Shown one piece after another: positions 20,664 to 41,784 of a DNA stretch of 64,000 bases. The notes under the pieces are model-generated. The model saw only the letters and a program-made list of their open reading frames with translations, searched no databases and had not been told where the DNA came from. The DNA comes from Gautieria morchelliformis (taxonomy: Eukaryota > Basidiomycota > Agaricomycetes > Gomphales > Gomphaceae). The number at the start of each line of letters is the position of its first letter. Within the stretch, counting starts at the first letter, position 1. The stretch lies in contig WHVA01000138.1 in assembly GCA_015179125.1 (NCBI GenBank), forward strand, positions 167,644 to 231,643, in the 5' to 3' direction. The position numbers and the translations under genes are program-made.

Positions 20664-20876
20664 TGTAAAGATGTCTATCTTAAACCTTAAGTCACAAGAG
20701 CACGACAGAACTTGACCAATGTGTGGTATTCTGATGCTACGTAGTGACAGTGTAAGGGTAAGATGCGATGGGGACCGCTAGCCGGTTCCCACGCATAAAC
20801 TATACAGTGGGTCCCTAAGGGGCCCACTGGGATTATGTAATAACTAATGTACATGTAGATACACGGGGTATTTACA
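20664..20876 (-). repeat. 3' LTR of gypsy C with polypurine tract
   Basis: On the minus strand the LTR begins TGTAAATACCCC and ends ACATCTTTACA. The polypurine tract AGAGGGGGAGGG directly precedes it (20877-20888). Comparison with the 5' LTR shows about five to six differences in 213 bases. Four of them are CG versus CA/TG changes (the TSD of the nested LTR B included). Confidence 0.9.
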
Positions 20877-20912: not shown

Positions 20913-22376
20913 TTACTCATAGAGGTCGTCCATGAGGGAGTCCTCTAGAGTGGCCGATACGATGATGTCGTCGTCGTACGGGGCCGGTGGAGCACGTGAC
21001 TCCTCCGGGGGCACCTCCGCGTCATCGGTGGTGATTGGGTGAGGCTGGTCGGCCTCACCACTAGTGGCGGTCTCCGCTTGGGTGCTGGGGCCCGTGTCCT
21101 CGCGGAGCATGGCCTCAACGGCCGGGTCCTCAGTTTGAGGAGGGGGCCGGAAGCGCGCCAGCTCTCGGTCGAGCTGGGCATGAGTGAGGGGTCGCGGCAC
21201 CGCGGCCCTCACATGGCCGGTCTCGATGACCTTTTGTTGGCCCTCGCAGGCGGCGGCACTGAATGCCGCGCCGGTGAGGCTGCGTTGAACATAATGTTCA
21301 ATGCGGGCCACTCGCTCGCGAGTGACTCCCACATAGTGGGCCAACCATCTTGCGATCTCCGTGAGTGGGATGTCGGGGCCGGCTTGGCCCTCCACAGGGA
21401 ATGGGCCCGTGATTGAGAGCCGCATGGTGGTGCTCTGAGGCGTCAGCACTTCCCTGGCGTCGACGAGGCTCGACCATTGGTCTGTCGAGCCGAAGAGGTC
21501 GAGTAGCCTCGCCCTGAGAGGTGATGCGACCCCTTTGACCCGGGGCGCAAGGGCCTTCAACCACATCCAGACGTCCATGTCATCTAGGTTGAAGGTGCCG
21601 TCCGCGTTGTCACGGATGGCGGATGGGATCCCTTCAGGGTTGTGTATCCAACCCTTCAGGATCCCCGCGATGTCGTGCGGGGTACCACCCGCTATCACGA
21701 GACAATCCCTTTTGGGATTGCGAGCGCGTTGTTCGCACTTGATGCGTTTGAATACGCCGATCATCTCACACGTACACGCGAGCTGCGGCGTTTCTTTTGC
21801 CCACGCTATGAGTTCGACGAAGCGTGGGTCGTCGAGCGGGCAGACATCGTACCATTGAGTACGACGCTGTTGGGCCTTTCCTACCGGCTGTGGTAGGAGG
21901 CCCATCTCGGAGATCGGTGGGTCTCTGAGTGGTATGATCACTCCCTCCCCCGGGTAGGGAGGGTGAACTGTCCCCGCCGGTGGAGGCAGGGCCACACCAG
22001 GCCCGATGTACTGGGCCTCGATCTGTGCTACCCGCCGCTGAAGGGCGGGGTCGTTGATGGTGTGCGACGGTGACGCCGCTGGGTAGGCGCTAATCGTGCT
22101 TTCCTTCACAATGGCTATCCCATTGATGGTGTGGGGGGAGCCACGCAATTTCTTGCGCTTTTTCTTTGGCTGCTCTGCCAGCCGCTGTGCCCATTCGGGG
22201 TCGTACGTCTTCCAGACAGATGAGTCGGACTCCCATCCATCTGGGACGCCGTACGCAGAGTCGGAAGGTGCGCTCTGCCCTTCCGTTGTTGTTGTTGTCG
22301 GGGTCGGCACCGACAATCAGGACGCTAGCCCCGATGTTGCGCGCGCCGGCAACGGCGCCGTCGCGCGAGGTGATGA
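20913..22376 (-). pseudogene. Third ORF of gypsy C, C-terminal two thirds
   Basis: This is the rest of the ORF whose N-terminus lies at 29985-30513. They were joined before copia A1 inserted and the inversion happened. Open codons run from the TGA at 22317-22319 to 20913, about 467 residues. Landmarks are AEQPKKKRKK (basic, possibly nuclear targeting), QWYDVCPLD, CEMIGVFKRIKCEQ, ILKGWIHNPEG, MDVWMWLKALAPR, LFGSTDQWSS, EIARWLAHYVGV and an acidic tail ending SLMDDLYE. The in-frame TGA is also present at the same place in gypsy D. There are no recognisable envelope features (no signal peptide, no membrane span). Function is unknown. Confidence 0.75.
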
Positions 22377-22873
22377 TGTAGAGGACAGGAATTATAGGCA
22401 GTAGGTATGGACTTGTTGCTCAAAAGAATAGACTAGAAATTAATTCACTCTCTCAGTGAATTTAGTTGTCACTATAAATATATTATACACTACCTAGAAA
22501 TTAATTCACTACAGAGGATTTCTAGGTCAATAAATCGAAAGAATGCTAGACTAATTTACTTGCCTCTCTCAGTGAATTTAGTTGTCACTGAGAGAGGGGG
22601 AAATTGTTTCACTGCGCATGTACTACTATCCGGCCCTTTAGCGCCCAAGAGCTCGCGCGTCGAAGTCATTTCAGACTCCGCTGGGTGCAGCCGCTTGTGA
22701 AAGTAGGAATAACAAAATGAAATAGAGAGACAGGGAGTGAGTGGAAAATTTCGAAAATCACCAGAGAAATGGATGCATGATACAAGAACAACATGAGAAG
22801 AAATTGAGAAAGCACACAACAAATTGGATATATTATGCTTGATTTTGGTGCAGGAGCATCAATGCACCCAACA
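22377..22873 (-). repeat. 3' LTR of copia A1
   Basis: 497 bases. The polypurine tract on the minus strand (CTTGAGGGGGCG, about 22874-22886) precedes it. It contains two inverted CTCTCTCAGTGA-type motifs that can pair with each other. It differs from the 5' LTR by one base seen by eye. Confidence 0.9.
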
Positions 22874-22886
22874 CGCCCCCTCAAGC

Positions 22887-23288
22887 TTAATATATTCCGA
22901 TTTGCTCGTTGAGGATCTTCACTCTAGGACTAGAAAGTCCTTTGGTGAGGATATCTGCCAACATTTGTTCGGTTGGCAAATAAACGAGCTTGGCTTGTTG
23001 ATTTTTGATTATATCTCGAAGGAAATATAATCTGATGTCGAAATGTTTGGTTCTCGTGTGTTGTTGAGTGCAATATGTGATGGCAATGGCTGATTGATTG
23101 TCTGAATAAATTTTGATGGGTCTGTTCAGTGGTTGGAATATTTCAGAAATAAAATGGCGCATCCAGAGAGCCTCTTTGCCCGCATGGGTCAGGGCAACGA
23201 ATTCGGCTTCAGTTGATGAGAGGGCTACTATCGACTGTTTCTGGCAACTCCATGAAACAGTGCCTCCATCAATCTGAAATAAGTATGC
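22887..23288 (-). pseudogene. Copia A1 RNase H domain, after an in-frame TAG
   Basis: Reading on from the 669-codon ORF past TAG (SY*AYLFQ), the frame continues QKQSIVALSSTEAEFVAL, then IYSDNQSAI, TKHFDIR, QMLADILTKGL and a stop before the polypurine tract. These are the later RNase H motifs of Ty1/copia pol. The TAG is also found in copia A2. Confidence 0.85.
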
Positions 23289-25298
23289 CTAATACGAACG
23301 CCTATGACTCTGTGAACCCCAATCCGCATCTGAATACCCCATCAAGCCGTCTCGATTTCTTCCAAGTGTGAGCTTGTAATGCTTCGTGCCTTTCAAATAT
23401 TTGAAGACATGTTTGACTGCATTCCAATGTGTGCCACCTGGATTTTCGAGGAATTGCGAAAGCAATGACACCGCAAATGCAATGTCAGGTCGAGTGGCTA
23501 CAGCTGCCCACATCAGTGATCCTATAGCTTGCCTGTACGGGAACTTCGACATGGCTTTCTTGCCTCTCTCTGTAGAAGGACATTGGTCTTTTGATAATTT
23601 AACAGCTGGGTCAAGGGGCGTAGCATAAGTCTTTGCATCTTCGAGATTGAATTTTTTGATGATCTTCTCGATGTATGCAGGTTGTGAAATTGCAATAGTT
23701 TTCTTCTGCCAGTCTCTTTCGATTTTGAGATTCAATAGCCAATGAATCTCGCCTAGATCTTTCATACTGAAGACCTGAGCAAGATCTCGTTTGACTTCGT
23801 CCAGGACTGACTGATTCTCAGCTGTGATGGTGAGATCATCCACAGCTGTTGCAATGATCACATGCCCCTTTCCGCCACGTCTATAAAATACAGCCCCATC
23901 TGTGGCTGACGTAGTGAATCCTAATTTGTGGAATTCACCACTTAGACGTTTGTACCATTCCCTTCCAGATTGTTTGAGGCCATAGAGTGCTTTCTTCAAA
24001 AGTAGCACTTCGTCTTTGTCTCTAGACTCATATCCATACGGCTGCTTCATGTAAATAGGTTCAGGTAGTGTAGCATTGAGGTATGCATAGTCCACGTCCA
24101 TTTGATGGATAGGCCAGTCATTCCTAGCAGCAATGGCGCATATGATCCGTAGGGAGGATAATCGAGCAACAGGTGAGTATGTCTCATCATAGTCGACTCC
24201 AAACTTCTGTGTGAAGCCTTGGGCGACCATTCTCGATTTAGGCATTATTGGTTTCCCTTCTGGATTACGCTTCCAAAGGTAGACCCATTTATTACCGACA
24301 ATATTGGCTCCAGGTGGTTTGGCTCGTTCCCACACTCCCTTGTCGATTAGGGCCTCATACTCTTTGTCCATTGATTTCTTCCATATAGGATTATTCAGAG
24401 CTTCGTCTGCATTGCTAGGTTCAATTTGACTCAAATCCGGCGCCTTGTTATTGTTTTGACCGTCGGTTAGAAACGCACTGATGGCACACTCATAGCTACT
24501 GATGCCATCAATCTCGGAGGATAATTCTTGGTCGAATAAAACTTCTTTATGGTCCTCAACGTCCTCGTAAGCTAGCGTAGTCATATGTGCGCCAGCTTGT
24601 CTCTGGGTTTGAGATCTTGTTACGGGACCTGATGGGGCCGGCTGCACTTGTTGTTGACGGATCCTTTCGCTTCTCCTTATCGGTTCAGCTTCTCTAGGTC
24701 TGTCATCAACTCCCTGAATAGGTTGCAGCTTTTCAAGATATTCCTCTGGTGCATTTTCATCAATTTCTTCGATCTTTGCCTCTTCGCTGACTAAGCGACC
24801 GGGTACAGGCACTGATGCCGGAATGGCCTTCTTCTCTTCTCTAGACGTAGGTAGCTTGGATTCCTCAATAGAAATGATTGGGACCTTTCCCTTCTTCATC
24901 TCTGAATCAAACACAACGTTCCGCTCGACAGAAACTTTGTGCGAGTCAGGACAATAAATATAATGACCATGGCTCTGCGCAGAAATTCCTATCCACCGAG
25001 CTCTCTTGGCACGAGCTTCCAATTTATCTCCCTGAGTGACCTTAACATAGACTTCAGTTCCCCACGCGTGAATGTCTTTGAGATTCGGTTTCTCATGGTG
25101 GATCATCTTGTAGGGCGTTTTATCCGGTAGGGCTCTTGTGTGCGTCCTGTTCCTAAGATAATTGGCATGCTGTATTGCATAGCCCCATAATATCTTAGGA
25201 AGGCCTGATTCTAACAGCATGGCACGAGTTCTCTCAGTGAGAGTTCGGTTCAGACGTTCGGCAACACCATTAGACTCTGGTGTGTCGTGTACCGTCAA
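23289..25298 (-). pseudogene. Copia A1 integrase C-terminal half, reverse transcriptase, start of RNase H
   Basis: 669 open codons without a proper start: the piece is in another frame from Gag-PR-IN and continues it after a frameshift and apparent small deletion near 25360. The integrase Glu lies in ESNGVAERLN (residues 8-17). The linker is followed by RT (about 330-575) with QMDVDYAYLNA (399-409), LKQSGREWY and an AVDD active site (485-488), where animal and plant copia have YVDD. RNase H begins with YSDADWG near the end. It copies the element RNA into DNA and integrates it in virus-like particles. The frame is interrupted, so this copy is not autonomous. Confidence 0.9.
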
Positions 25299-25365
25299 CT
25301 GATGCTTCGTGCCTTGTTTGGCTAGATGCTGTTCGAATTCAGAGCTCGTATACTCGCCCCCTCGA

Positions 25366-27102
25366 TCAGAAACAAGTGCCTTGATGTGTACATTTCTCTG
25401 TCGAAGCAGAGAATGCTTCTGATTTGTTCGCCATGAGATAGATCACCGATTCTCTTGAGTAATCATCGATAAAGGAGACATAATATGACTTCTTATCGAT
25501 TGTGAGGTGCCTTGCAGGTCCCCAGACATCAGAATAAATTCTGTCACCGAATTTTGATGTTCGGTCTCTGGGTTCTCGAGGAAGAGGTTTGCGTGCAATC
25601 TTGGCCTGAATACACGCATCGCAGACAATTCTATCGCCTGTGGAGCTCAGTTCAATGCCCAATATCATGCCATGATTTAATAGATGTTGTAGGGACTTCT
25701 GTGAGATATGCCCCATTTTTTGATGAATTTCCATGGCAGACAAACACATATGGGCTTGAGCACTTGGTGACTGGAGGTCTAGTTGATATAAACCATTGAC
25801 CTTCGGTGCTTGCATCAATACCTTTCCAGTAGCGTTAGATATTGTGCATTTCTGGCCACTGAGTCGAATGTCGTAGCCAGCATCATCGCACCGACCGATC
25901 GAGACGAGGGTAGCAGCAATTTTTGGAGCATAATATGTATCTTGCAACATGACTTCTACTGTTTTATCTCCAACCTTGTTGGATAATACAAGCAGTCCTG
26001 AACCGAAGGCATCAAAAGTGCCTTTGTTGGCTGCTCGGATTGTCCTCGGCTGTGAGAATTGACAGTAGTTCCTCAATAAATTTTTATGAGGAGTCATATG
26101 CAATGTCGTTCCGGTGTCGAGTATAACTATAACTCCTGAGGATGTGCTCAGATTGAAATTAGAGCACTCGTCAAAATTGGTGAAGGCAAGATGCCCATCA
26201 CCACTTTCCTCAGAAGAGGACTCTTCTTCGGCAACATTCGCTTTTGCTTTACCCTTCTTCTTCTTCTTGGCTTTGGCTTTTTTCTTCTGACGTGGTCCTT
26301 GACCTTCTTTACCACCTCCTTTAGCCCAGCAATTTTCGATGGAATGTCCAGGCTTTTTGCAGTTGGTGCATACATGCGCCTTCTGCCCCTTCTGGTCCTT
26401 CTTAGTAGATGAACCAATAAACACCTGCTCTTCTTGCGGGAGTGTTTTCTTCCTGTCATACTGAGCCTTTAGTACCCTAATAATATTATCAGGGACCAAT
26501 GGCATCCCGCATTCTTCAAGCGAAGTGGTAAGGGCGTTCATGACTGCCTCATAGGATGGTGGAAGTGATGCAAGGATGATGTCCATAAATTCTTCTTCGG
26601 AAACTCTGGCTCCCATCTCATTAAGACGAGCATATAGGTCTTGGGCCTTGTCCAAATGATCTCTCAAGTCTCCATCCTCAGGACATCTCATACTGCGGAG
26701 TTGTCGCTGCAGGCTGGTGAGGACCATCTTGGGCTTTTTGGTCATCTCATTGACCAATGCATCCCAAGTCTCTTTTGCTGTCTTCTGCTTCTGTAGCATC
26801 AGGGCTAATGACTCTGACACTGAGACGATGATTTGGGTCTTGGCTTGTCCTTCTCTAGCAAGGTATCTCTCCAGCTTCTCCTCAGCCTTATCCATCTGAG
26901 TTTCCTCAGCTTCTGTGAGAATATGGCCTGGGGGCATAACTGGAGGATCAGGAGGTCTAGTGACTCTCCCTTCTACATGCTTGAGTAGATTTTTGGACTC
27001 GAAATAGCTGATGAGAGTGGCTCGCCACAATGGCCAATTACTACCATCAGTAGCAAGCTTCTCAACACCCAATAGCTTCTCAGAAGTGTCTCCGGGGCCC
27101 AT
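25366..27102 (-). pseudogene. Copia A1 Gag, protease and integrase N-terminal half
   Basis: 578 codons from ATG at 27102. Gag occupies about residues 1-300, with a CCHC zinc knuckle CTNCKKPGHSIENC (245-258) and a lysine-rich tail (270-290). The protease has LDTGTTLHM (DTG at 329-331). The GAG-pre-integrase HHCC motif is HQKMGH...CDACIQAK near 450-500. The integrase core starts YSDVWGP with FIDDYSR. The ORF ends by frameshift within the integrase. The start ATG lies inside the presumed primer-binding site. The same protein is encoded by copia A2 at 31016-32752. Confidence 0.9.
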
Positions 27103-27107
27103 AACCC

Positions 27108-27604
27108 TGTAGAGGACAGGAATTATAGGCAGTAGGTATGGACTTGTTGCTCAAAAGAATAGACTAGAAATTAATTCACTCTCTCAGTGAATTTAGTTGT
27201 CACTATAAATATATTATACACTACCTAGAAATTAATTCACTACAGAGGATTTCTAGGTCAATAAATCGAAAGAATGCTAGACTAATTTACTTGCCTCTCT
27301 CAGTGAATTTAGTTGTCACTGAGAGAGGGGGAAATTGTTTCACTGCGCATGTACTACTATCCGGCCCTTTAGCGCCCAAGAGCTCACGCGTCGAAGTCAT
27401 TTCAGACTCCGCTGGGTGCAGCCGCTTGTGAAAGTAGGAATAACAAAATGAAATAGAGAGACAGGGAGTGAGTGGAAAATTTCGAAAATCACCAGAGAAA
27501 TGGATGCATGATACAAGAACAACATGAGAAGAAATTGAGAAAGCACACAACAAATTGGATATATTATGCTTGATTTTGGTGCAGGAGCATCAATGCACCC
27601 AACA
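27108..27604 (-). repeat. 5' LTR of copia A1
   Basis: 497 bases. By eye it matches both LTRs of copia A2. It is followed on the minus strand by GGGTTATGGGCCCC, the presumed primer-binding site. Confidence 0.9.
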
Positions 27605-28464
27605 TCTGGCACACTACATGCCGGATGTTAGCGCATATACCACCCTGCTATCAGGCTGTGCGCGTAATAACCGTCCATTCGAATGGACACCACTGCTCGT
27701 TACACTTAAATATAACTTAAATATAAAATTGGGACAAATGCTGGCAAAGCATTAAGGCATTGGCCTGTAAGGCCCCGATCCTGCGTCCAGTAGACGCAAG
27801 GTACCCAGAGCCGATCTGGGTGATCACCGATGGATCAAAAGCCGGCGTCGGTGCGGTCTACGGCCAGGGTCCTGACTGGAAAACTTGTCGACCAGCCAGC
27901 TTCTTGTCAAAGAAGTTCAGCGTTGCTCAGCAACACTACCAGACTCACGAGCACGAGACGATCGCGGTGCTCGAGGCTCTCATGAAATGGGAGGACAAAC
28001 TGCTGGGGCGAAGGTTCACCCTCATCACAGACCACAAGGGGCTCGAGTACTTAAAGACCCAAAAGAGCATATCTGACGGACAGGTCAGATGGTGGGAGTT
28101 TCTATCCCGGTTCAATTTCAACACCGTTCATGTAGATGGTGTAGAGAACAAGGTAGCGGACTGCCTGTCGCGCTACTATGACAGCGACACGAGTGATGAC
28201 ACTCACCCGGACCACGTCTTCGTGAACGCGGATGCGTGTTTAGACCCGGACGGTGAGTTATTGCCCACCGACCGGTATGTCGAGTTGCGAACAGCGGCAA
28301 CAAGATGCTCTAAACGCCTCGCTGAGAAGACAGAGGCGAGAGTAACGGAAGCTGCCGCATTAAACGAGGGCTCACCAGAGCCCGCGACTACGACGATGAC
28401 ATCAGAGCCATCGCCGCAGGAAATGATGGCGCACCCCTGCGCCGGATCGTCGAGCAAGGCGTAG
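27605..28464 (+). pseudogene. Gypsy C RT end and RNase H (inverted block)
   Basis: This is the direct continuation of the RT at 35742. LVQYL joins AHYMPDVSAYTTLLSGC when copia A2, one TSD copy and the inversion are undone. A 31-base AT-rich insertion (27699-27729) interrupts WTPLL and DKCWQSIKAL. The RNase H follows with WVITDGSKAGVGAV, HEHETIAVLEAL, ITDHKGLEYL and VADCLSRYY. The frame ends after an acidic linker. RNase H removes RNA from the RNA-DNA hybrid during reverse transcription. Confidence 0.9.
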
Positions 28465-29813
28465 ACCTGTCCAAGGTCCTACGAGACGCGTACCACAGGG
28501 ACACCGTGTTCACAAAGATCATGGCGCACCCGGACGCGCACCCGAGATTCAGGACCCGGGACGGGCTGATCTGGACTAAGAATCAGCTCAAGAGAGACGC
28601 CATTGCCGTCCCCCGCTCTGTTCTTCAAGGGGGAAGGAAGCTGATCGAAATTATCATCGATAGGGCACATCAGATAGTCGGCCACTACGGCCATCTGAAG
28701 ACTTAGAACTACGTTCTGCACATCGTGCGCGAGGTGTCAGATGACGAAAACTGGGCCACAACGGTCCAAAGGCCTACTACACAGCCTACCCATTCCAGAT
28801 AGGCCGTGGCAGTCGATTGGCATTGACTTCATGGGGCCCCTGCCCAAATCCAATGACTGTGACTACCTGATGGTAGTCATCGACCGACTAACGTCGCTCG
28901 TACACCTCGTACCAACCACGACGAGCGTGTCAGCCAAGGGAGTGGCCTGGCTGTTTCTGAAGGAGGTCATCTGACTACACGGAGTTCCCGACTCCATCGT
29001 CTCGGACAGGGACTCAAAGTTCACGTCGATCTTCTGGCGTGAACTCCAGCGACTCATGGGGACTAAGCTCCTCATGTCAACTGCCTTCCATCCACAAACG
29101 GATGGAGCAACCAAGCGGGCAAACCGCTCCATCGGCCAGATATTGCGCGCGGTCGTCAGAGACGATCAAAAGGATTGGGCATTGAAATGCCCAATGGTTG
29201 AGGTCGCCCTCAACAGCAACGTCAGCGCGACCCCGCGGATAGACCTCCCCATAGCCGCGGACACCCCGTTCAAGGGGGTGGCCCGGTTCACACATCAGGC
29301 AAAATGGAACCTGATGGCAGCACACGATGCAATCATAGAGCATCGAGTGACGCAAATGTTTCACGCAAATAAGAAACGTATGGTGAGCGACAGGTACGCG
29401 GCCAACGACCGCGTCTACCTTTCGACACAAAACCTAACTCTCCCGAAAGGAAGAGCCAGAAAGCTAGTCCCGCGGTACATCGGACCGTACCACGTCATCG
29501 AGGCTCACAACGACGCCTCGACAGTGACCCTCAATCTTCCCGACGAACTGAAAGCCGTCGCATTTCACCGGTCTTCCATTCCAGCCTCGTACGGCGATAC
29601 GAGGCTAACAACGATGAATTGTTCCCTCGTCGTGAGGCCAAGTCATTTTACGACTTCGGAGCAAATGACGACGAGGAGTGGCTCGTTGACGAGATTATCG
29701 CACATCGATGGATAAACTCGACGGACCTGGAGTTCCAGGTCCGTTGGACCCTAGGCGACGTGACATGGGAACCCATGTCGTCCTGCAAGGACCTTGTAGC
29801 CCTAGATAGCTAG
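28465..29813 (+). pseudogene. Gypsy C integrase with chromodomain-like end (inverted block)
   Basis: Zinc-binding region: AHQIVGHYGH supplies the two His and CTSCARCQMTK supplies the Cys pair, but a deletion and frameshift near 28705 separate them. Core: IGIDFMGPLP gives the first Asp and IVSDRDSKF the second. The third motif reads TDGATKRANR, where the catalytic Glu of T.E is replaced by Lys. A TGA at about 28972 interrupts KEVI.LHG. The C-terminus has a GPY-type motif (YIGPYHVI) and a chromodomain-like module WLVDEIIAHRW...VRWTLGDVTWEP. A frameshift lies near 29550. Inactive. Confidence 0.9.
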
Positions 29814-29984
29814 CTAGAGCTTCGGGGGGTGGGCAAGCCACGCGACCTCCCCAGACGCCACTAGATGCGTCTGTCACATGCAGACCACGTGACGCGCTGG
29901 CCACGGCGCGGTTAAATTTTCGCCTCGGATCTTTCCGAGGGCGCATCGCTTCTTGGAAGCAACCACCATCATCTACCCACAAAG
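29814..29984 (+). other. Pol to third-ORF spacer of gypsy C
   Basis: A spacer of about 170 bases with an inverted repeat around CCTCGGATCTTTCCGAGG (29924-29941), which could form a small hairpin just before the third ORF. The same sequence, decayed, is seen in gypsy D, where it is split by an insertion. Confidence 0.5.
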
Positions 29985-30513
29985 ATGATGCCCCCCAAAG
30001 ATGGGATGGACGTTGACCCGTCAACGTCCACAACGCGGACATCGGCCCCGAGACAAGGGGCCGCACACATTCTCCGTGCTCCAATAGACCAGGACAGGAG
30101 CACTGGATGATCATGGGCTGGGAGGACGCCCTCGCCATCGTCCACCCGGAAGATTGCACAACATGCGCGGACTACGCCGCGCACCTTAGGGCCGCGACCG
30201 GCACCCGCAAGGTCAAATTGCGGGATGAGGACATCGGCGACGCCGTCGATGCAGCCTGGGGATGGCTCCCACGGGGCATCGTGCGCGACACGCGGGAGGA
30301 GCCCCTCCGGGACATCCATGACCTTAAAAAGGAGGTCAAGGAGCTGGAACGCGCGGTCGAGGACCGCGGCGACGTGCTCGCAACCGAGCGCGCAAGGATC
30401 AAGGAACTGGAGCAACAGCTGAGCGCAGCCCAGCTCCAGGTTACCCTGGTCCACGCTGCCTCAGCAAGGCCGCGACATGACCCAGCCACAGACCCAGTGG
30501 CCGGGCCATCATC
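29985..30513 (+). pseudogene. Third ORF of gypsy C, N-terminal third (inverted block)
   Basis: Starts ATGATGCCCCCC after a purine-rich leader. It encodes KDGMDVDPSTST and, after a four-base insertion near 30095 relative to gypsy D, HWMIMGWEDALAIVHPEDC. A coiled coil follows (DLKKEVKELERAVEDR and IKELEQQL, 30325-30420), then VAGPSS, where copia A2 begins. The continuation is at 22376. The homologous ORF in gypsy D is uninterrupted at this point, which proves the original order. Function is unknown. A coiled coil plus a basic patch would suit a nucleic-acid or capsid-associated protein, but this is a guess. Confidence 0.75.
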
Positions 30514-31010
30514 TGTTGGGTGCATTGATGCTCCTGCACCAAAATCAAGCATAATATATCCAATTTGTTGTGTGCTTTCTCAATTTCTTCTCATGTTGTT
30601 CTTGTATCATGCATCCATTTCTCTGGTGATTTTCGAAATTTTCCACTCACTCCCTGTCTCTCTATTTCATTTTGTTATTCCTACTTTCACAAGCGGCTGC
30701 ACCCAGCGGAGTCTGAAATGACTTCGACGCGTGAGCTCTTGGGCGCTAAAGGGCCGGATAGTAGTACATGCGCAGTGAAACAATTTCCCCCTCTCTCAGT
30801 GACAACTAAATTCACTGAGAGAGGCAAGTAAATTAGTCTAGCATTCTTTCGATTTATTGACCTAGAAATCCTCTGTAGTGAATTAATTTCTAGGTAGTGT
30901 ATAATATATTTATAGTGACAACTAAATTCACTGAGAGAGTGAATTAATTTCTAGTCTATTCTTTTGAGCAACAAGTCCATACCTACTGCCTATAATTCCT
31001 GTCCTCTACA
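30514..31010 (+). repeat. 5' LTR of copia A2
   Basis: 497 bases, TGTTGGGTGCAT to CCTCTACA. It contains the CTCTCTCAGTGACAAC and AATTCACTGAGAGAG inverted words, which can form a hairpin near 30790-30825 and recur near 30915-30945. Confidence 0.9.
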
Positions 31011-31024
31011 GGGTTATGGGCCCC
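31011..31024 (+). promoter_or_regulatory. Presumed primer-binding site (half-tRNA type) of copia A2
   Basis: Immediately after the 5' LTR is GGGTTATGGGCCCC. It is complementary to a CCATAACCC-type anticodon stem-loop of a methionine tRNA (CAU anticodon), as in Drosophila copia and yeast Ty5, which prime from a cleaved half tRNA-iMet. The Gag start codon (31016) is the triplet that pairs with the anticodon. Confidence 0.6.
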
Positions 31025-32752
31025 GGAGACACTTCTGAGAAGCTATTGGGTGTTGAGAAGCTTGCTACTGATGGTAGTAATTGGCCATTGTGGCGAGCCA
31101 CTCTCATCAGCTATTTCGAGTCCAAAAATCTACTCAAGCATGTAGAAGGGAGAGTCACTAGACCTCCTGATCCTCCAGTTATGCCCCCAGGCCATATTCT
31201 CACAGAAGCTGAGGAAACTCAGATGGATAAGGCTGAGGAGAAGCTGGAGAGATACCTTGCTAGAGAAGGACAAGCCAAGACCCAAATCATCGTCTCAGTG
31301 TCAGAGTCATTAGCCCTGATGCTACAGAAGCAGAAGACAGCAAAAGAGACTTGGGATGCATTGGTCAATGAGATGACCAAAAAGCCCAAGATGGTCCTCA
31401 CCAGCCTGCAGCGACAACTCCGCAGTATGAGATGTCCTGAGGATGGAGACTTGAGAGATCATTTGGACAAGGCCCAAGACCTATATGCTCGTCTTAATGA
31501 GATGGGAGCCAGAGTTTCCGAAGAAGAATTTATGGACATCATCCTTGCATCACTTCCACCATCCTATGAGGCAGTCATGAACGCCCTTACCACTTCGCTT
31601 GAAGAATGCGGGATGCCATTGGTCCCTGATAATATTATTAGGGTACTAAAGGCTCAGTATGACAGGAAGAAAACACTCCCGCAAGAAGAGCAGGTGTTTA
31701 TTGGTTCATCTACTAAGAAGGACCAGAAGGGGCAGAAGGCGCATGTATGCACCAACTGCAAAAAGCCTGGACATTCCATCGAAAATTGCTGGGCTAAAGG
31801 AGGTGGTAAAGAAGGTCAAGGACCACGTCAGAAGAAAAAAGCCAAAGCCAAGAAGAAGAAGAAGGGTAAAGCAAAAGCGAATGTTGCCGAAGAAGAGTCC
31901 TCTTCTGAGGAAAGTGGTGATGGGCATCTTGCCTTCACCAATTTTGACGAGTGCTCTAATTTCAATCTGAGCACATCCTCAGGAGTTATAGTTATACTCG
32001 ACACCGGAACGACATTGCATATGACTCCTCATAAAAATTTATTGAGGAACTACTGTCAATTCTCACAGCCGAGGACAATCCGAGCAGCCAACAAAGGCAC
32101 TTTTGATGCCTTCGGTTCAGGACTGCTTGTATTATCCAACAAGGTTGGAGATAAAACAGTAGAAGTCATGTTGCAAGATACATATTATGCTCCAAAAATT
32201 GCTGCTACCCTCGTCTCGATCGGTCGGTGCGATGATGCTGGCTACGACATTCGACTCAGTGGCCAGAAATGCACAATATCTAACGCTACTGGAAAGGTAT
32301 TGATGCAAGCACCGAAGGTCAATGGTTTATATCAACTAGACCTCCAGTCACCAAGTGCTCAAGCCCATATGTGTTTGTCTGCCATGGAAATTCATCAAAA
32401 AATGGGGCATATCTCACAGAAGTCCCTACAACATCTATTAAATCATGGCATGATATTGGGCATTGAACTGAGCTCCACAGGCGATAGAATTGTCTGCGAT
32501 GCGTGTATTCAGGCCAAGATTGCACGCAAACCTCTTCCTCGAGAACCCAGAGACCGAACATCAAAATTCGGTGACAGAATTTATTCTGATGTCTGGGGAC
32601 CTGCAAGGCACCTCACAATCGATAAGAAGTCATATTATGTCTCCTTTATCGATGATTACTCAAGAGAATCGGTGATCTATCTCATGGCGAACAAATCAGA
32701 AGCATTCTCTGCTTCGACAGAGAAATGTACACATCAAGGCACTTGTTTCTGA
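31016..32752 (+). pseudogene. Copia A2 Gag, protease and integrase N-terminal half
   Basis: 578 codons, identical in sequence to the A1 copy at 25366-27102. It has a Gag N-terminus with WPLWRATLISYF, zinc knuckle at residues 245-258, protease DTG at 329-331, and HHCC motif and first catalytic part of the integrase at the end. The frame is lost near 32735, where a frameshift, and probably a short deletion, precedes RQRNVHIKALVSDRGGEY in the next frame. Confidence 0.9.
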
Positions 32753-32819
32753 TCGAGGGGGCGAGTATACGAGCTCTGAATTCGAACAGCATCTAGCCAA
32801 ACAAGGCACGAAGCATCAG

Positions 32820-34829
32820 TTGACGGTACACGACACACCAGAGTCTAATGGTGTTGCCGAACGTCTGAACCGAACTCTCACTGAGAGAACTCGTGCCATG
32901 CTGTTAGAATCAGGCCTTCCTAAGATATTATGGGGCTATGCAATACAGCATGCCAATTATCTTAGGAACAGGACGCACACAAGAGCCCTACCGGATAAAA
33001 CGCCCTACAAGATGATCCACCATGAGAAACCGAATCTCAAAGACATTCACGCGTGGGGAACTGAAGTCTATGTTAAGGTCACTCAGGGAGATAAATTGGA
33101 AGCTCGTGCCAAGAGAGCTCGGTGGATAGGAATTTCTGCGCAGAGCCATGGTCATTATATTTATTGTCCTGACTCGCACAAAGTTTCTGTCGAGCGGAAC
33201 GTTGTGTTTGATTCAGAGATGAAGAAGGGAAAGGTCCCAATCATTTCTATTGAGGAATCCAAGCTACCTACGTCTAGAGAAGAGAAGAAGGCCATTCCGG
33301 CATCAGTGCCTGTACCCGGTCGCTTAGTCAGCGAAGAGGCAAAGATCGAAGAAATTGATGAAAATGCACCAGAGGAATATCTTGAAAAGCTGCAACCTAT
33401 TCAGGGAGTTGATGACAGACCTAGAGAAGCTGAACCGATAAGGAGAAGCGAAAGGATCCGTCAACAACAAGTGCAGCCGGCCCCATCAGGTCCCGTAACA
33501 AGATCTCAAACCCAGAGACAAGCTGGCGCACATATGACTACGCTAGCTTACGAGGACGTTGAGGACCATAAAGAAGTTTTATTCGACCAAGAATTATCCT
33601 CCGAGATTGATGGCATCAGTAGCTATGAGTGTGCCATCAGTGCGTTTCTAACCGACGGTCAAAACAATAACAAGGCGCCGGATTTGAGTCAAATTGAACC
33701 TAGCAATGCAGACGAAGCTCTGAATAATCCTATATGGAAGAAATCAATGGACAAAGAGTATGAGGCCCTAATCGACAAGGGAGTGTGGGAACGAGCCAAA
33801 CCACCTGGAGCCAATATTGTCGGTAATAAATGGGTCTACCTTTGGAAGCGTAATCCAGAAGGGAAACCAATAATGCCTAAATCGAGAATGGTCGCCCAAG
33901 GCTTCACACAGAAGTTTGGAGTCGACTATGATGAGACATACTCACCTGTTGCTCGATTATCCTCCCTACGGATCATATGCGCCATTGCTGCTAGGAATGA
34001 CTGGCCTATCCATCAAATGGACGTGGACTATGCATACCTCAATGCTACACTACCTGAACCTATTTACATGAAGCAGCCGTATGGATATGAGTCTAGAGAC
34101 AAAGACGAAGTGCTACTTTTGAAGAAAGCACTCTATGGCCTCAAACAATCTGGAAGGGAATGGTACAAACGTCTAAGTGGTGAATTCCACAAATTAGGAT
34201 TCACTACGTCAGCCACAGATGGGGCTGTATTTTATAGACGTGGCGGAAAGGGGCATGTGATCATTGCAACAGCTGTGGATGATCTCACCATCACAGCTGA
34301 GAATCAGTCAGTCCTGGACGAAGTCAAACGAGATCTTGCTCAGGTCTTCAGTATGAAAGATCTAGGCGAGATTCATTGGCTATTGAATCTCAAAATCGAA
34401 AGAGACTGGCAGAAGAAAACTATTGCAATTTCACAACCTGCATACATCGAGAAGATCATCAAAAAATTCAATCTCGAAGATGCAAAGACTTATGCTACGC
34501 CCCTTGACCCAGCTGTTAAATTATCAAAAGACCAATGTCCTTCTACAGAGAGAGGCAAGAAAGCCATGTCGAAGTTCCCGTACAGGCAAGCTATAGGATC
34601 ACTGATGTGGGCAGCTGTAGCCACTCGACCTGACATTGCATTTGCGGTGTCATTGCTTTCGCAATTCCTCGAAAATCCAGGTGGCACACATTGGAATGCA
34701 GTCAAACATGTCTTCAAATATTTGAAAGGCACGAAGCATTACAAGCTCACACTTGGAAGAAATCGAGACGGCTTGATGGGGTATTCAGATGCGGATTGGG
34801 GTTCACAGAGTCATAGGCGTTCGTATTAG
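32820..34829 (+). pseudogene. Copia A2 integrase C-terminal half, reverse transcriptase, start of RNase H
   Basis: 669 open codons identical to A1 (23289-25298). The integrase frame can be followed upstream to about 32735 (LVSDRGGEY holds the second Asp). RT has the AVDD site at residues 485-488. The ORF ends at TAG (34827-34829) within the RNase H domain. Confidence 0.9.
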
Positions 34830-35231
34830 GCATACTTATTTCAGATTGATGGAGGCACTGTTTCATGGAGTTGCCAGAAACAGTCGATAGTAGCCCTCTC
34901 ATCAACTGAAGCCGAATTCGTTGCCCTGACCCATGCGGGCAAAGAGGCTCTCTGGATGCGCCATTTTATTTCTGAAATATTCCAACCACTGAACAGACCC
35001 ATCAAAATTTATTCAGACAATCAATCAGCCATTGCCATCACATATTGCACTCAACAACACACGAGAACCAAACATTTCGACATCAGATTATATTTCCTTC
35101 GAGATATAATCAAAAATCAACAAGCCAAGCTCGTTTATTTGCCAACCGAACAAATGTTGGCAGATATCCTCACCAAAGGACTTTCTAGTCCTAGAGTGAA
35201 GATCCTCAACGAGCAAATCGGAATATATTAA
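34830..35231 (+). pseudogene. Copia A2 RNase H domain, after an in-frame TAG
   Basis: Continues in frame after TAG with VALSSTEAEFVAL, IYSDNQSAIAI and QMLADILTKGL up to a stop before the polypurine tract (35232-35244). Identical to the A1 copy. Confidence 0.85.
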
Positions 35232-35244
35232 GCTTGAGGGGGCG

Positions 35245-35741
35245 TGTTGGGTGCATTGATGCTCCTGCACCAAAATCAAGCATAATATATCCAATTTGTT
35301 GTGTGCTTTCTCAATTTCTTCTCATGTTGTTCTTGTATCATGCATCCATTTCTCTGGTGATTTTCGAAATTTTCCACTCACTCCCTGTCTCTCTATTTCA
35401 TTTTGTTATTCCTACTTTCACAAGCGGCTGCACCCAGCGGAGTCTGAAATGACTTCGACGCGTGAGCTCTTGGGCGCTAAAGGGCCGGATAGTAGTACAT
35501 GCGCAGTGAAACAATTTCCCCCTCTCTCAGTGACAACTAAATTCACTGAGAGAGGCAAGTAAATTAGTCTAGCATTCTTTCGATTTATTGACCTAGAAAT
35601 CCTCTGTAGTGAATTAATTTCTAGGTAGTGTATAATATATTTATAGTGACAACTAAATTCACTGAGAGAGTGAATTAATTTCTAGTCTATTCTTTTGAGC
35701 AACAAGTCCATACCTACTGCCTATAATTCCTGTCCTCTACA
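35245..35741 (+). repeat. 3' LTR of copia A2
   Basis: 497 bases. By eye it is identical to the 5' LTR of the same element. Preceded by GCTTGAGGGGGCG. Confidence 0.9.
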
Positions 35742-36777
35742 CCAGATACTGTACGAGCCTGAGGAAACGCTGGACGTCGTTGAATGTCCGTGGCCTGCGC
35801 CATTCGCGGATGCGTTGCATCTTATCCTCATTGGCATGTACCCCTCGGCCATCGATCATATGGCCGAGGCACTCCATTCGGATGGAGTAGAGGTCCACCT
35901 TTTTCTTGCTCAGAAAGAGGTGGTTCTTCCTCAGTCTGTCAAAGACGATGTAGAGGTGCTCTTCATGCTCTTGTATTGAGAGCGAGAATATGAAGATGTC
36001 GTCCATGTATACATGGACAAAGCGACCTATGCAGTCACGGAAAATGGCTGTCATCAGCCGTTGGAATGTTGATGGGGCATTACAGTCCCCCATCTGTATC
36101 ACCTGGCTCCTGAAGGTGCCGAGGATCGTGGCAAAGGCTGTCTTTGCTACATGATCTGGATGAATCTGGATCTGCTCGTATGCTTCTGACATATCGAGTT
36201 TTCTTTGATATTGGCAGCGAGCCATGTCGCTGTGTATGATATCCTGATCTGGGAAGGGAGTGACGTCCTTCACCGTGTTCTCGTTCTGCTGGCGCAGATC
36301 GAAGACGGTTCTCAACGTACCGTTCTTCTTCGGCACACACAGCATGGGCACGGCCTGCTGCGCTACTGCCGGAATCCACCACTTTGCAGTGGTGTATCAT
36401 TCTATCTTTGCCGACAGTTCCTCTCGGAAGTGTTTGGGGCATTTCGGTAGTCGATACCGCATGTGCTTGATGGGATCGATGAGGTTGATCTCATGGTTGA
36501 TCTCCCGCAGTGGCGGGAGTTCTAATGGAATTCCACTGACTAGGTCAGTGATTCTTTCCATCCATTCCTCGCGGAGGCGAGGAAGGTCATCATCCGTGAG
36601 GATGATGGTAGTGGTTGGCTTAGGTGCCATTAGGCGCTGTTGGCGTCTATTAGGTCCCGTGGCGTGCGGGCCCGCTTTCCTTTTTCCCATCGCTTTCATC
36701 GTTAGGTGAGAGCGTCTCTCCCTACGGCTGTAGGGTGAGTTCGAGGACAAGTCGTCTCGCGACTCGTCCTCCTGGCT
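35742..36777 (-). pseudogene. Gypsy C reverse transcriptase (5' part of pol)
   Basis: Minus strand. After the TGA that ends Gag-protease, the frame stays open through a linker with IILTDDDLPRLREEW and KHMRYRLPKCPKHFREEL. It shifts near 36395 into VPMLCVPKKNGTLRTVFDLR. It then runs through KLDMSEAYEQIQ, QMGDCNAPSTFQRLM, the catalytic YMDD (residues 115-118 of the open segment starting at 36351), LSKKKVDLY and FLRLVQYL, where copia A2 intervenes. The rest of pol is at 27605-29813 in the inverted block. The order of RT motifs is normal for Ty3/gypsy. Confidence 0.9.
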
Positions 36778-40041: not shown

Positions 40042-40155
40042 TGTAAAGATGTCTATCTTAAACCTTAAGTCACAAGAGCACAACAGAACTTGACCAATGT
40101 GTGGTATTCTGATGCTACATAGTGACAGTGTAAGGGTAAGATGCGATGGGGACCG
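40042..40155 (-). repeat. 5' LTR of gypsy C, inner half
   Basis: Equivalent to 20664-20777. The LTR continues at 41686-41784 on the far side of LTR B, making 213 bases in total. The flanking duplications are GACCG (40151-40155) and GACTG (41681-41685). Confidence 0.9.
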
Positions 40156-41680
40156 TGTCAAGATTGGTTTTTAGGCATTAATATCGTGTATTAGTGAACA
40201 CAACGAATGCCCGAAGAACTTGTGCGAATAAGTATGCCGTTCGGCGAATAAGTGAACCGATGAATGTTCACGAAATGAAGGGGTTGCCCGAACGGGGCTC
40301 GCCCTGTCTACAGTCATAGCGAAACAGCTCGCAGCACTTGACGACGTAACGTGCAAGATGTCGCGGAAGGGCTGTCTAAGTTTCGACGGTCCCTTCGCTG
40401 GCGAAGGTGCTCCTTCGGAGCCCTTCGCCAGCAGCACAGAAAATAGCTTGAAGGCTAAGGTATCGAAGACGAAGTATGAGAACTCACCAGTGATGCCTAA
40501 GTCCTTGGCTGGTCGAAGATAGAAATCTTCAAGGAGAGGCCCAAGACGATGATCACAGCGAGGTCAAGTTTGCACAAGATGGATGACGTATGATAATTGA
40601 ACTGGGGAATGTACATGTGAATGTAAACTACTTATATCGAATGCTCGTAAGGTAACAGCGAATAGGAAAGAGACCGTTACAAGTCAGGGTTGGATAGGGG
40701 TGCGCAGCCATGGTACTAAGGAGATGGAATAAACATACAATAGAGTGAGGGAAGAATGCGAACATGAAACGACGGAGAATAAAAGGGGGCGAAGGCACTT
40801 ATGGACAAAAACATGTCTTGGGACCCGCATGTTGGGTGCATTTATGCTCCTGCACCAAAATCAAGCATAATATGTTCAATTTATTGTGTGGTGTTTCCAA
40901 TTGTTTCTCACATTGTTCTTGTACCATGCATCCATTTCTCTGCTTATTTTCGAAATTTTCCAGTCACTCTCTACCTCTCCATTTCATTCTGTTATTTCTA
41001 TTTTCACAGGCGGCTGCACCCAGCGGAGTTTGAAATGACTTCGACGCGCGAGCCCTTGGGCGCTAAAGGGCCGGGTGCACGTATATGCCTTCTGAGACAG
41101 GATTGTACTCCTCTCTCAGTGACAATAAATTCACTGAGAGAGGCGAGTAGTATTCTTTGTATTTTCATAACATGTTGACTGAAAATCATGTATACATTTG
41201 ATTCTAGGTATTGTATTAATACATCAGTGACAATAAATTCACTGAGAGAGTACATTTGATTCTAGCTTTCTAAGAACTCTACCGAACCTTCCCTGCCATA
41301 GCCCCTAGTTGCTAACACCGCATACATGCTACCCTGCACGGACTCTTCGTTTACTGGGTTGATCCCGCACGACCTATGGAGGGAACGCCCTGCGAACGCA
41401 CTTTGGCCATACGGACACCCAATGGGGTTGGATTAAGAAGATGATGGGGCTAATGATGAACCATCATGCCGGGTGATTGGTATCGATCATATTTGATGGC
41501 GTGCCTGCTGGCGAAATGCGCGAGTAGCGAATAGCGGTTCGGAGTATGGGGCGAACAGCGAGTAGGGTAGACGTAGAGGAGGAGTGGTCGGTAGGTGTGG
41601 CGAACTCTGACGAAGATGCTAGGGAGTGATGAGGGGGAACATGGAGGTAGCGCGGTAGGAGAAATAAACCGGTCATGACA
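40156..41680 (+). mobile_element. Solo LTR B inside the 5' LTR of gypsy C
   Basis: Runs from TGTCAAGATTGG to ACCGGTCATGACA with the TSD GACCG/GACTG (one CG to TG change). Itself split by a copia-type solo LTR (40830-41317). Without that insert it is about 1032 bases, the size of LTR B1. Confidence 0.9.
40830..41317 (+). mobile_element. Solo copia-type LTR (A') inside LTR B
   Basis: 488 bases from TGTTGGGTGCAT to TTGCTAACA with a perfect TSD CCGCA (40825-40829 and 41318-41322). The empty site exists in other LTR B copies, for example near 49530. Related to but clearly diverged from the LTRs of copia A1/A2. Its closest relative in the window is 57605-58092. Confidence 0.9.
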
Positions 41681-41685
41681 GACTG

Positions 41686-41784
41686 CTAGCTGGTTCCCAC
41701 GCATAAACTATACAGTGGGTCCCTAAGGGGCCCACTGGGATTATGTACTAACTAATGTACATGTAGATACACGGGTTATTTACA
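41686..41784 (-). repeat. 5' LTR of gypsy C, outer half
   Basis: Equivalent to 20778-20876. It ends at the TSD GTGAG (41785-41789). Confidence 0.9.

Follow-up and report, generated by a model that had tools for sequence, protein, structure and literature searches.

A stretch of 64,000 nucleotides from the truffle-like gomphalean basidiomycete Gautieria morchelliformis (contig WHVA01000138.1, positions 167,644 to 231,643; referred to as the window) includes a Ty3/gypsy retrotransposon, named gypsy C, that was interrupted by two Ty1/copia elements, A1 and A2, lying in opposite orientation and differing at one base over 5,228 bp. The 2.9-kb block of gypsy C found between them is flipped. This state of the block is confirmed by two independent lines of evidence, the reciprocal swap of the target-site duplications (TSDs) of the copia copies and the collinearity of other gypsy copies in the same genome. 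As judged from the sequence, the course of events that we consider probable on balance is that two separate insertions were followed by recombination of the inverted copies, which homogenised them and flipped the block.

Swapped duplications and the native order of the block

The 5-bp sequences that flank the two copia copies, GATGA-A1-TCTGG and TCATC-A2-CCAGA, are reciprocally swapped, each outer flank being the reverse complement of the flank found at the inner edge of the other copy (Table 1). An earlier reading of the window made from its letters only (the sequence-only reading) had described this swap, and its coordinates, strands and flanks for A1 and A2 proved exact when they were read again. 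Simple arithmetic gives odds of about 1e-6 for two reciprocal 5-mer matches arising by chance. Elements of this copia family generate 5-bp TSDs, which are perfect in 21 of 34 sampled copies with both ends readable. The sample consisted of 40 fetched copies, from which 6 that were unreadable at one or both ends had been excluded, and it was not random: it was drawn from the first 100 places listed in the copia searches and from matches to the long terminal repeat (LTR), with low-numbered contigs over-represented. Among the 36 copies readable at both ends (the 34 plus A1 and A2), A1 and A2 are the only pair with swapped unequal flanks, and no further swapped pair was found; one other listed pair merely has an identical, intact TSD. 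The swap therefore calls for an exchange between the two copies, whether in the living cell or during assembly. The duplications are two distinct ones, the target of each being single in other gypsy copies, and two TSD pairs in turn imply two integrations.

The second line of evidence came from searches of the assembly, which comprises 122,073,039 bases in 1,113 contigs. Among the best 40 of 1,463 candidates scored, 24 other near full-length relatives of the block were found at 88-92% identity. When 29 gypsy relatives were fetched, all four flank probes were present in 24 of them, always in the order reverse transcriptase (RT) side, block, open reading frame 3 (ORF3) side and on one strand; the remaining 5 do not have one or more of the probes. 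In one of the 24, L026, about 0.7 kb of other sequence separates the RT side from the block. Because this order is fixed in the relatives, the block in the window is reversed relative to them. Wherever two adjoining probes both align to their ends they share 5 bp, which are the TSD. The empty site between the RT side and the block was spanned in 23 of the 29 loci (22 ungapped), with TCTGG present once in 22 and TCGGG in one, and that between the block and the ORF3 side in 25 (22 ungapped), with TCATC present once in 19 and variants by 1-2 bases in the other 6. These uninverted target sites were observed in paralogous gypsy copies and not in an allele of this locus. The expectation of the sequence-only reading that turning the block back would restore the frames of RT and ORF3 was borne out: the RT peptide join is native in 24/29 loci (at most 3 substitutions), L026 being a poor match beside its insertion, and the ORF3 peptide join also in 24/29 (at most 4 substitutions), within open frames of 72 to 1,005 codons. 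Gypsy C itself keeps its LTR pair in place, with identities of 98% (112/114) and 96% (100/104) for the two halves, and its outer 5-bp flanks, GTGAA and GTGAG, are equal at 4/5 bases; therefore it is the block that is out of order.

Agreement of the 5-mers by accident, with the block being a separate gypsy fragment that was placed independently, would gain something from the 10/34 sampled copies that have neither a perfect nor a 4/5 TSD. However, in addition to the odds of a reciprocal match, the ends of the block run into both outer flanks in 24/29 relatives, and the joins overlap by the TSD. Such a chance or annotation artefact is refuted by the collinear gypsy relatives and the empty sites, and we assign it practically no probability.

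Two gypsy relatives showed features of their own. In one of them (L034:4159-4419, contig C329), about 260 bp close to where ORF3 begins are inverted in place, with forward sequence on both sides. This locus was considered as a second case of the kind described here and rejected, the inversion being separate and small and the locus having no copia match. In the other (L004, contig C491), an apparent lone copia LTR is located beside the RT region, the match extending about 8 bp past the LTR.

A1 and A2 as a private pair

What the sequence-only reading overlooked is that A1 and A2 form a sister pair with markers of their own. When they are aligned with six other full copies, 18 substitutions and two deletions, of 3 bp and 26 bp, are private to the pair. 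The junction of the 26-bp deletion occurs exactly twice in the 122-Mb assembly, and no other carrier was found there with up to 2 mismatches allowed. This deletion disrupts the gag-pol frame: the longest frames of A2 have 717 and 594 codons, and 2 of 4 other checked copies have one frame of 1,430 codons. The six other copies are 50-193 substitutions away from the pair and 32-194 from one another (15 comparisons); the next-closest copy is 98% identical (best 25 of 2,079 candidates scored). In terms of scores, A1 and A2 match each other with 9424 of 9429 bits, and the nearest neighbours of two control copies reached 9305/9481 and 9314/9524, the query of the latter including some flank. Since A1 and A2 are a private pair, their near-identity itself needs to be explained and is more than a precondition for an exchange. 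For two copies to share private markers, either the sequence of one must have replaced that of the other, or a defective source must have produced two insertions less than 3 kb apart and none elsewhere that was kept.

The second of these possibilities supposes that a single defective source, mobilised by a helper, inserted twice in the same gypsy, the block being turned afterwards by a crossover or by the assembler and no gene conversion taking place. It is in keeping with the similarity of the LTRs within each element (497 bp each, TG...CA, with no difference in A2 and one in A1) and with the many copies of the family at 97-99%, which suggest recent activity. On the other hand, the assembly holds no third carrier of the deletion, and for the sole two carriers to have landed 2.9 kb apart in 122 Mb the arithmetic gives a value of the order of 1e-4. 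The lone mismatch between A1 and A2 would also need an exact reversion to the family base. We regard two sister insertions as improbable.

This mismatch is located at LTR position 219, where C was found in 18/18 other LTRs and in 6/6 other full copies, and T in none of the 18. The LTRs of one element are identical at insertion. The family form of the position is in a CpG context, at which C to T is an easy mutation and T back to C is not. The odds of a random reversion at one of about 19 private sites can be calculated as ~19/5228/3, about 0.1%. We infer that a gene-conversion tract terminated at the outer end of A1 and that the family base was kept for this reason. As the copies are homogenised, it is the one informative site left for testing A1 and A2 as chimeras of the original elements.

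Recombination or assembly, and comparable systems

In the sequence of events that we favour, two copia elements would have integrated independently and in opposite orientation at two sites of gypsy C, each generating its own 5-bp TSD, and would later have recombined as inverted repeats. Homologous copia copies in opposite orientation are indeed found at both breakpoints of the block. A crossover between them would reverse the 2.9-kb block and exchange the TSD halves; the flip and the swap are both present in the assembly, and we infer that they took place in the organism. Either at that time or before it, almost the entire sequence of one element may have been replaced by that of the other through gene conversion, the 26-bp deletion that breaks pol being transferred as well and the converted stretch probably ending within or just before the outer LTR of A1, with one family base surviving there. 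Recombination of inverted repeats explains the swap, the flip and the homogenisation together. A more specific proposal, which we put forward tentatively and consider rather doubtful, is that a single crossover-associated event between unequal copia copies flipped the block and converted about the whole 5.2-kb element, spreading the deletion that kills pol, and that the locus could still be flipping back and forth, in which case both orientations would segregate in populations of Gautieria.

The sequence-only reading had left recombination between the near-identical inverted copies and a flip by the assembler as alternatives, and as an either-or statement this is supported, the flipped state itself being established by the swapped TSDs and the collinear relatives. 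If the assembler was responsible, the order in the organism is the uninverted one, and the assembly entered one copia copy and exited via the other, turning the block; reuse of the sequence of one copy would at the same time explain the near-identity. A pair of 5.2-kb repeats differing by 1 mismatch is difficult to assemble in a copia family whose copies number in the hundreds, to judge from 392 and 624 matches to its junctions (at most 1 mismatch). There is a precedent in the reference genome of Candida albicans, suspected of being mis-oriented at an inverted repeat, where polymerase chain reaction amplified the other orientation only, according to the passages available from that study (PMC6591007). 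Nevertheless, the window is rich in repeats and contains no N, nor do 232,713 fetched bases, which is consistent with a gapless, long-read style assembly, and long reads of more than 6 kb would settle each copy alone. Moreover, to place one sequence in both copies, mis-joins would be needed less than about 220 bp from the inner edge of A2 and about 280-700 bp from the outer edge of A1, values that follow from the marker positions if the originals differed at the private sites. As the mis-joins would have to be so near the edges, the shared deletion is more likely to be real in both copies. The available passages of the genome paper mention Illumina, PacBio or hybrid sequencing and do not state the method for G. 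morchelliformis (PMC7550596).

Several observations weigh against recombination in the organism. No second allele or contig with the other orientation was seen among the scored matches, namely the best 40 of 1,463 for the block and the best 40 of 816 for the left flank. Within these, other full-length matches of the block reach at most 92%, shorter ones at most 94% over at least 1 kb and 96% over 137 bp, and those of the left flank at most 95%. Also, 13 of the 34 sampled copia copies have no perfect TSD, 3 of the 13 agreeing at 4/5 bases. As copies without TSD are not rare in the family, the weight of the argument rests on the reciprocal swap and not on the missing TSD. Of these 13, one (C14:242k) adjoins another copia LTR and another, the minus copy on contig C150, has a displaced 8-base match in its flanks, so that an exchange is unnecessary for some of them. 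The LTR pairs of four other measured copia copies are 98.4-100% identical, and a share of 13/34 without TSD despite similar LTRs points to frequent recombination between elements or to frequent mis-joins.

Two further loci belong with these observations. The first consists of near-duplicate sequences on contigs C58 (L128, C58:193500-197500) and C308 (L130, C308:142800-146800), which match over 4,001 bp at 99.85% across the same copia edge, including about 0.6 kb of copia, and differ on their other sides. The C58 copia copy has no TSD, that of C308 has an intact one, and C308 ends about 5 kb further on. The likely cause is a mis-join, redundancy of contig ends or a rearrangement; as the repeat family is the same, the joins made at it are doubtful at least once. 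With 5 gap openings against 1 mismatch, the match gives a hint of indel errors from long reads. The second is an inverted pair of the same copia family on contig C141 (L041-L044, C141:73.2-85.1 kb), the copies being 1.3 kb apart. It was examined as a second case and rejected, both TSDs being intact and the copies 188 substitutions apart, and it is a natural control that was neither flipped nor homogenised. The doubt raised by C58 and C308, the unflipped pair on C141 and the unstated sequencing method are the reasons why we hold real recombination to be probable on balance only, and why a flip made by the assembler keeps a sizeable likelihood, short of even.

An event of this kind is already known, and the present locus is a clean example of it. 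Recombination between inverted repeats is known from Drosophila (PMC2775673), yeast (PMC9731477, PMC9879454), Candida (PMC6591007) and the human Y chromosome (PMC3723533). The closest in its footprint is inversion 2z3 of Drosophila buzzatii, generated by Galileo, in which element copies in opposite orientation are found at the breakpoints, the TSDs are exchanged, the uninverted arrangement has a single target, and ectopic recombination was inferred (PMC2775673). However, Galileo is a DNA transposon with 7-bp TSDs, the inversion is chromosomal, and both inverted and non-inverted chromosomes were studied (PMC2775673), while the element here is an LTR retrotransposon, the inverted block measures 2.9 kb and belongs to another element, and the locus is represented in one arrangement. 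The flip/flop region of Saccharomyces chromosome XIV also has near-identical, homogenised inverted repeats, of about 4 kb, whose recombination inverts the intervening segment (PMC9731477). In that system the repeats are made of host genes, the segment is 24 kb long with 15 genes, and both orientations are found in populations (PMC9731477); the repeats of the present locus are defective retrotransposons seen in a single assembly.

In the human Y palindrome P6, arm identity of more than 99.9% is kept by multi-kilobase gene conversion, and inverting crossovers are rare (PMC3723533). P6 differs in being a palindrome of host sequence that was followed in 378 chromosomes (PMC3723533), as compared with one locus in one assembly. 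Crossovers between inverted Ty1 copies on the same arm in yeast are similar in that an LTR retrotransposon inverts a segment and conversion accompanies the repair; those inversions were induced by Cas9 cuts and one was checked by Nanopore sequencing (PMC9879454), while the present one is deduced from the assembled bases alone. Gene conversion of LTRs is treated in plants (PMC7251063) in passages that leave the reading of this locus unchanged, as does PMC12368964, in which no passage with terms for TSDs or mis-assembly was found. By title or start of abstract, none of the open papers listed for exchanged TSDs, for inversions and for LTR or Ty elements reports this locus, which is not proof of absence, and the passages available from papers naming Gautieria concern peroxidases and the lineage and include nothing on this locus.

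If the recombination is real, this compact locus would record integration, conversion and crossover in one sequence: there are two pairs of TSDs, 23 and 25 loci of the same genome supply empty sites as controls, and markers would delimit a conversion tract. It would also show how the sequence of a defective copy can replace that of another, no transposition being needed. In addition, an exchange of TSDs between inverted copies is a cheap check of an assembly, flagging either real inversions or flipped segments.

Composition of the locus

Table 1. Features of gypsy C, of the copia copies A1 and A2 and of their flanks (positions in the window)
Feature	Position	Strand	Remarks
Gypsy C	20664-41784	minus	host element, received both copia insertions
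Gypsy C 3' LTR	20664-20876		
Gypsy C ORF3 remainder	20913-22376	minus	severed from the start of ORF3, which is at the block's end at 30513
GATGA, left flank of A1	22372-22376		TSD partner TCATC now at 30509-30513
Copia A1	22377-27604	minus	5,228 bp; outer (3') LTR 22377-22873; inner (5') LTR 27108-27604
Only base differing between A1 and A2	22655		outer LTR of A1, LTR position 219; C there, T in the other three A1/A2 LTRs
Private 26-bp deletion site in A1	~25408-25409		integrase region, disrupts the gag-pol frame
TCTGG, right flank of A1	27605-27609		TSD partner CCAGA now at 35742-35746
Inverted block of gypsy C	27605-30513	plus	rest of gypsy C minus; RNase H, integrase C-terminal SH3-like domain, ORF3 start
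TCATC, left flank of A2	30509-30513		
Copia A2	30514-35741	plus	5,228 bp; inner (5') LTR 30514-31010; outer (3') LTR 35245-35741
Private 26-bp deletion site in A2	32709-32710	plus	integrase region, disrupts the gag-pol frame
CCAGA, right flank of A2	35742-35746		
Gypsy C RT piece	35742-36396	minus	RVT_1 (E=1.1e-23); severed from the sequence that continues it at 27605; adjoins the block in other copies
Gypsy C 5' LTR, two parts	40042-40155 and 41681-41784		divided by a nested insert

The Pfam domains identified in A1 are Retrotran_gag_2, Pol_BBD, gag_pre-integrs and a weak rve, the latter under the Pfam cut-off, followed by RVT_2 (E=3e-66); the protein frames of A2 are those of A1. Both copies can be assigned to Ty1/copia by the position of the integrase ahead of an RVT_2-type reverse transcriptase, the copia-type gag, the LTRs and the 5-bp TSD of the family. 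The assignment of gypsy C to Ty3/gypsy is based on its LTR pair and on RVT_1, RT_RNaseH and a Tf2-1-like SH3 domain, which are in separate pieces, their order being read from the relatives. No Pfam match to the integrase core was obtained in the piece 28975-29715, and Rfam gave 0 matches in the window at the gathering threshold. The nested insert that divides the 5' LTR of gypsy C (40156-41680, about 1.5 kb) has the edges GACCG and GACTG, and its sequence is found again in the window near 43.3 and 48.9 kb.

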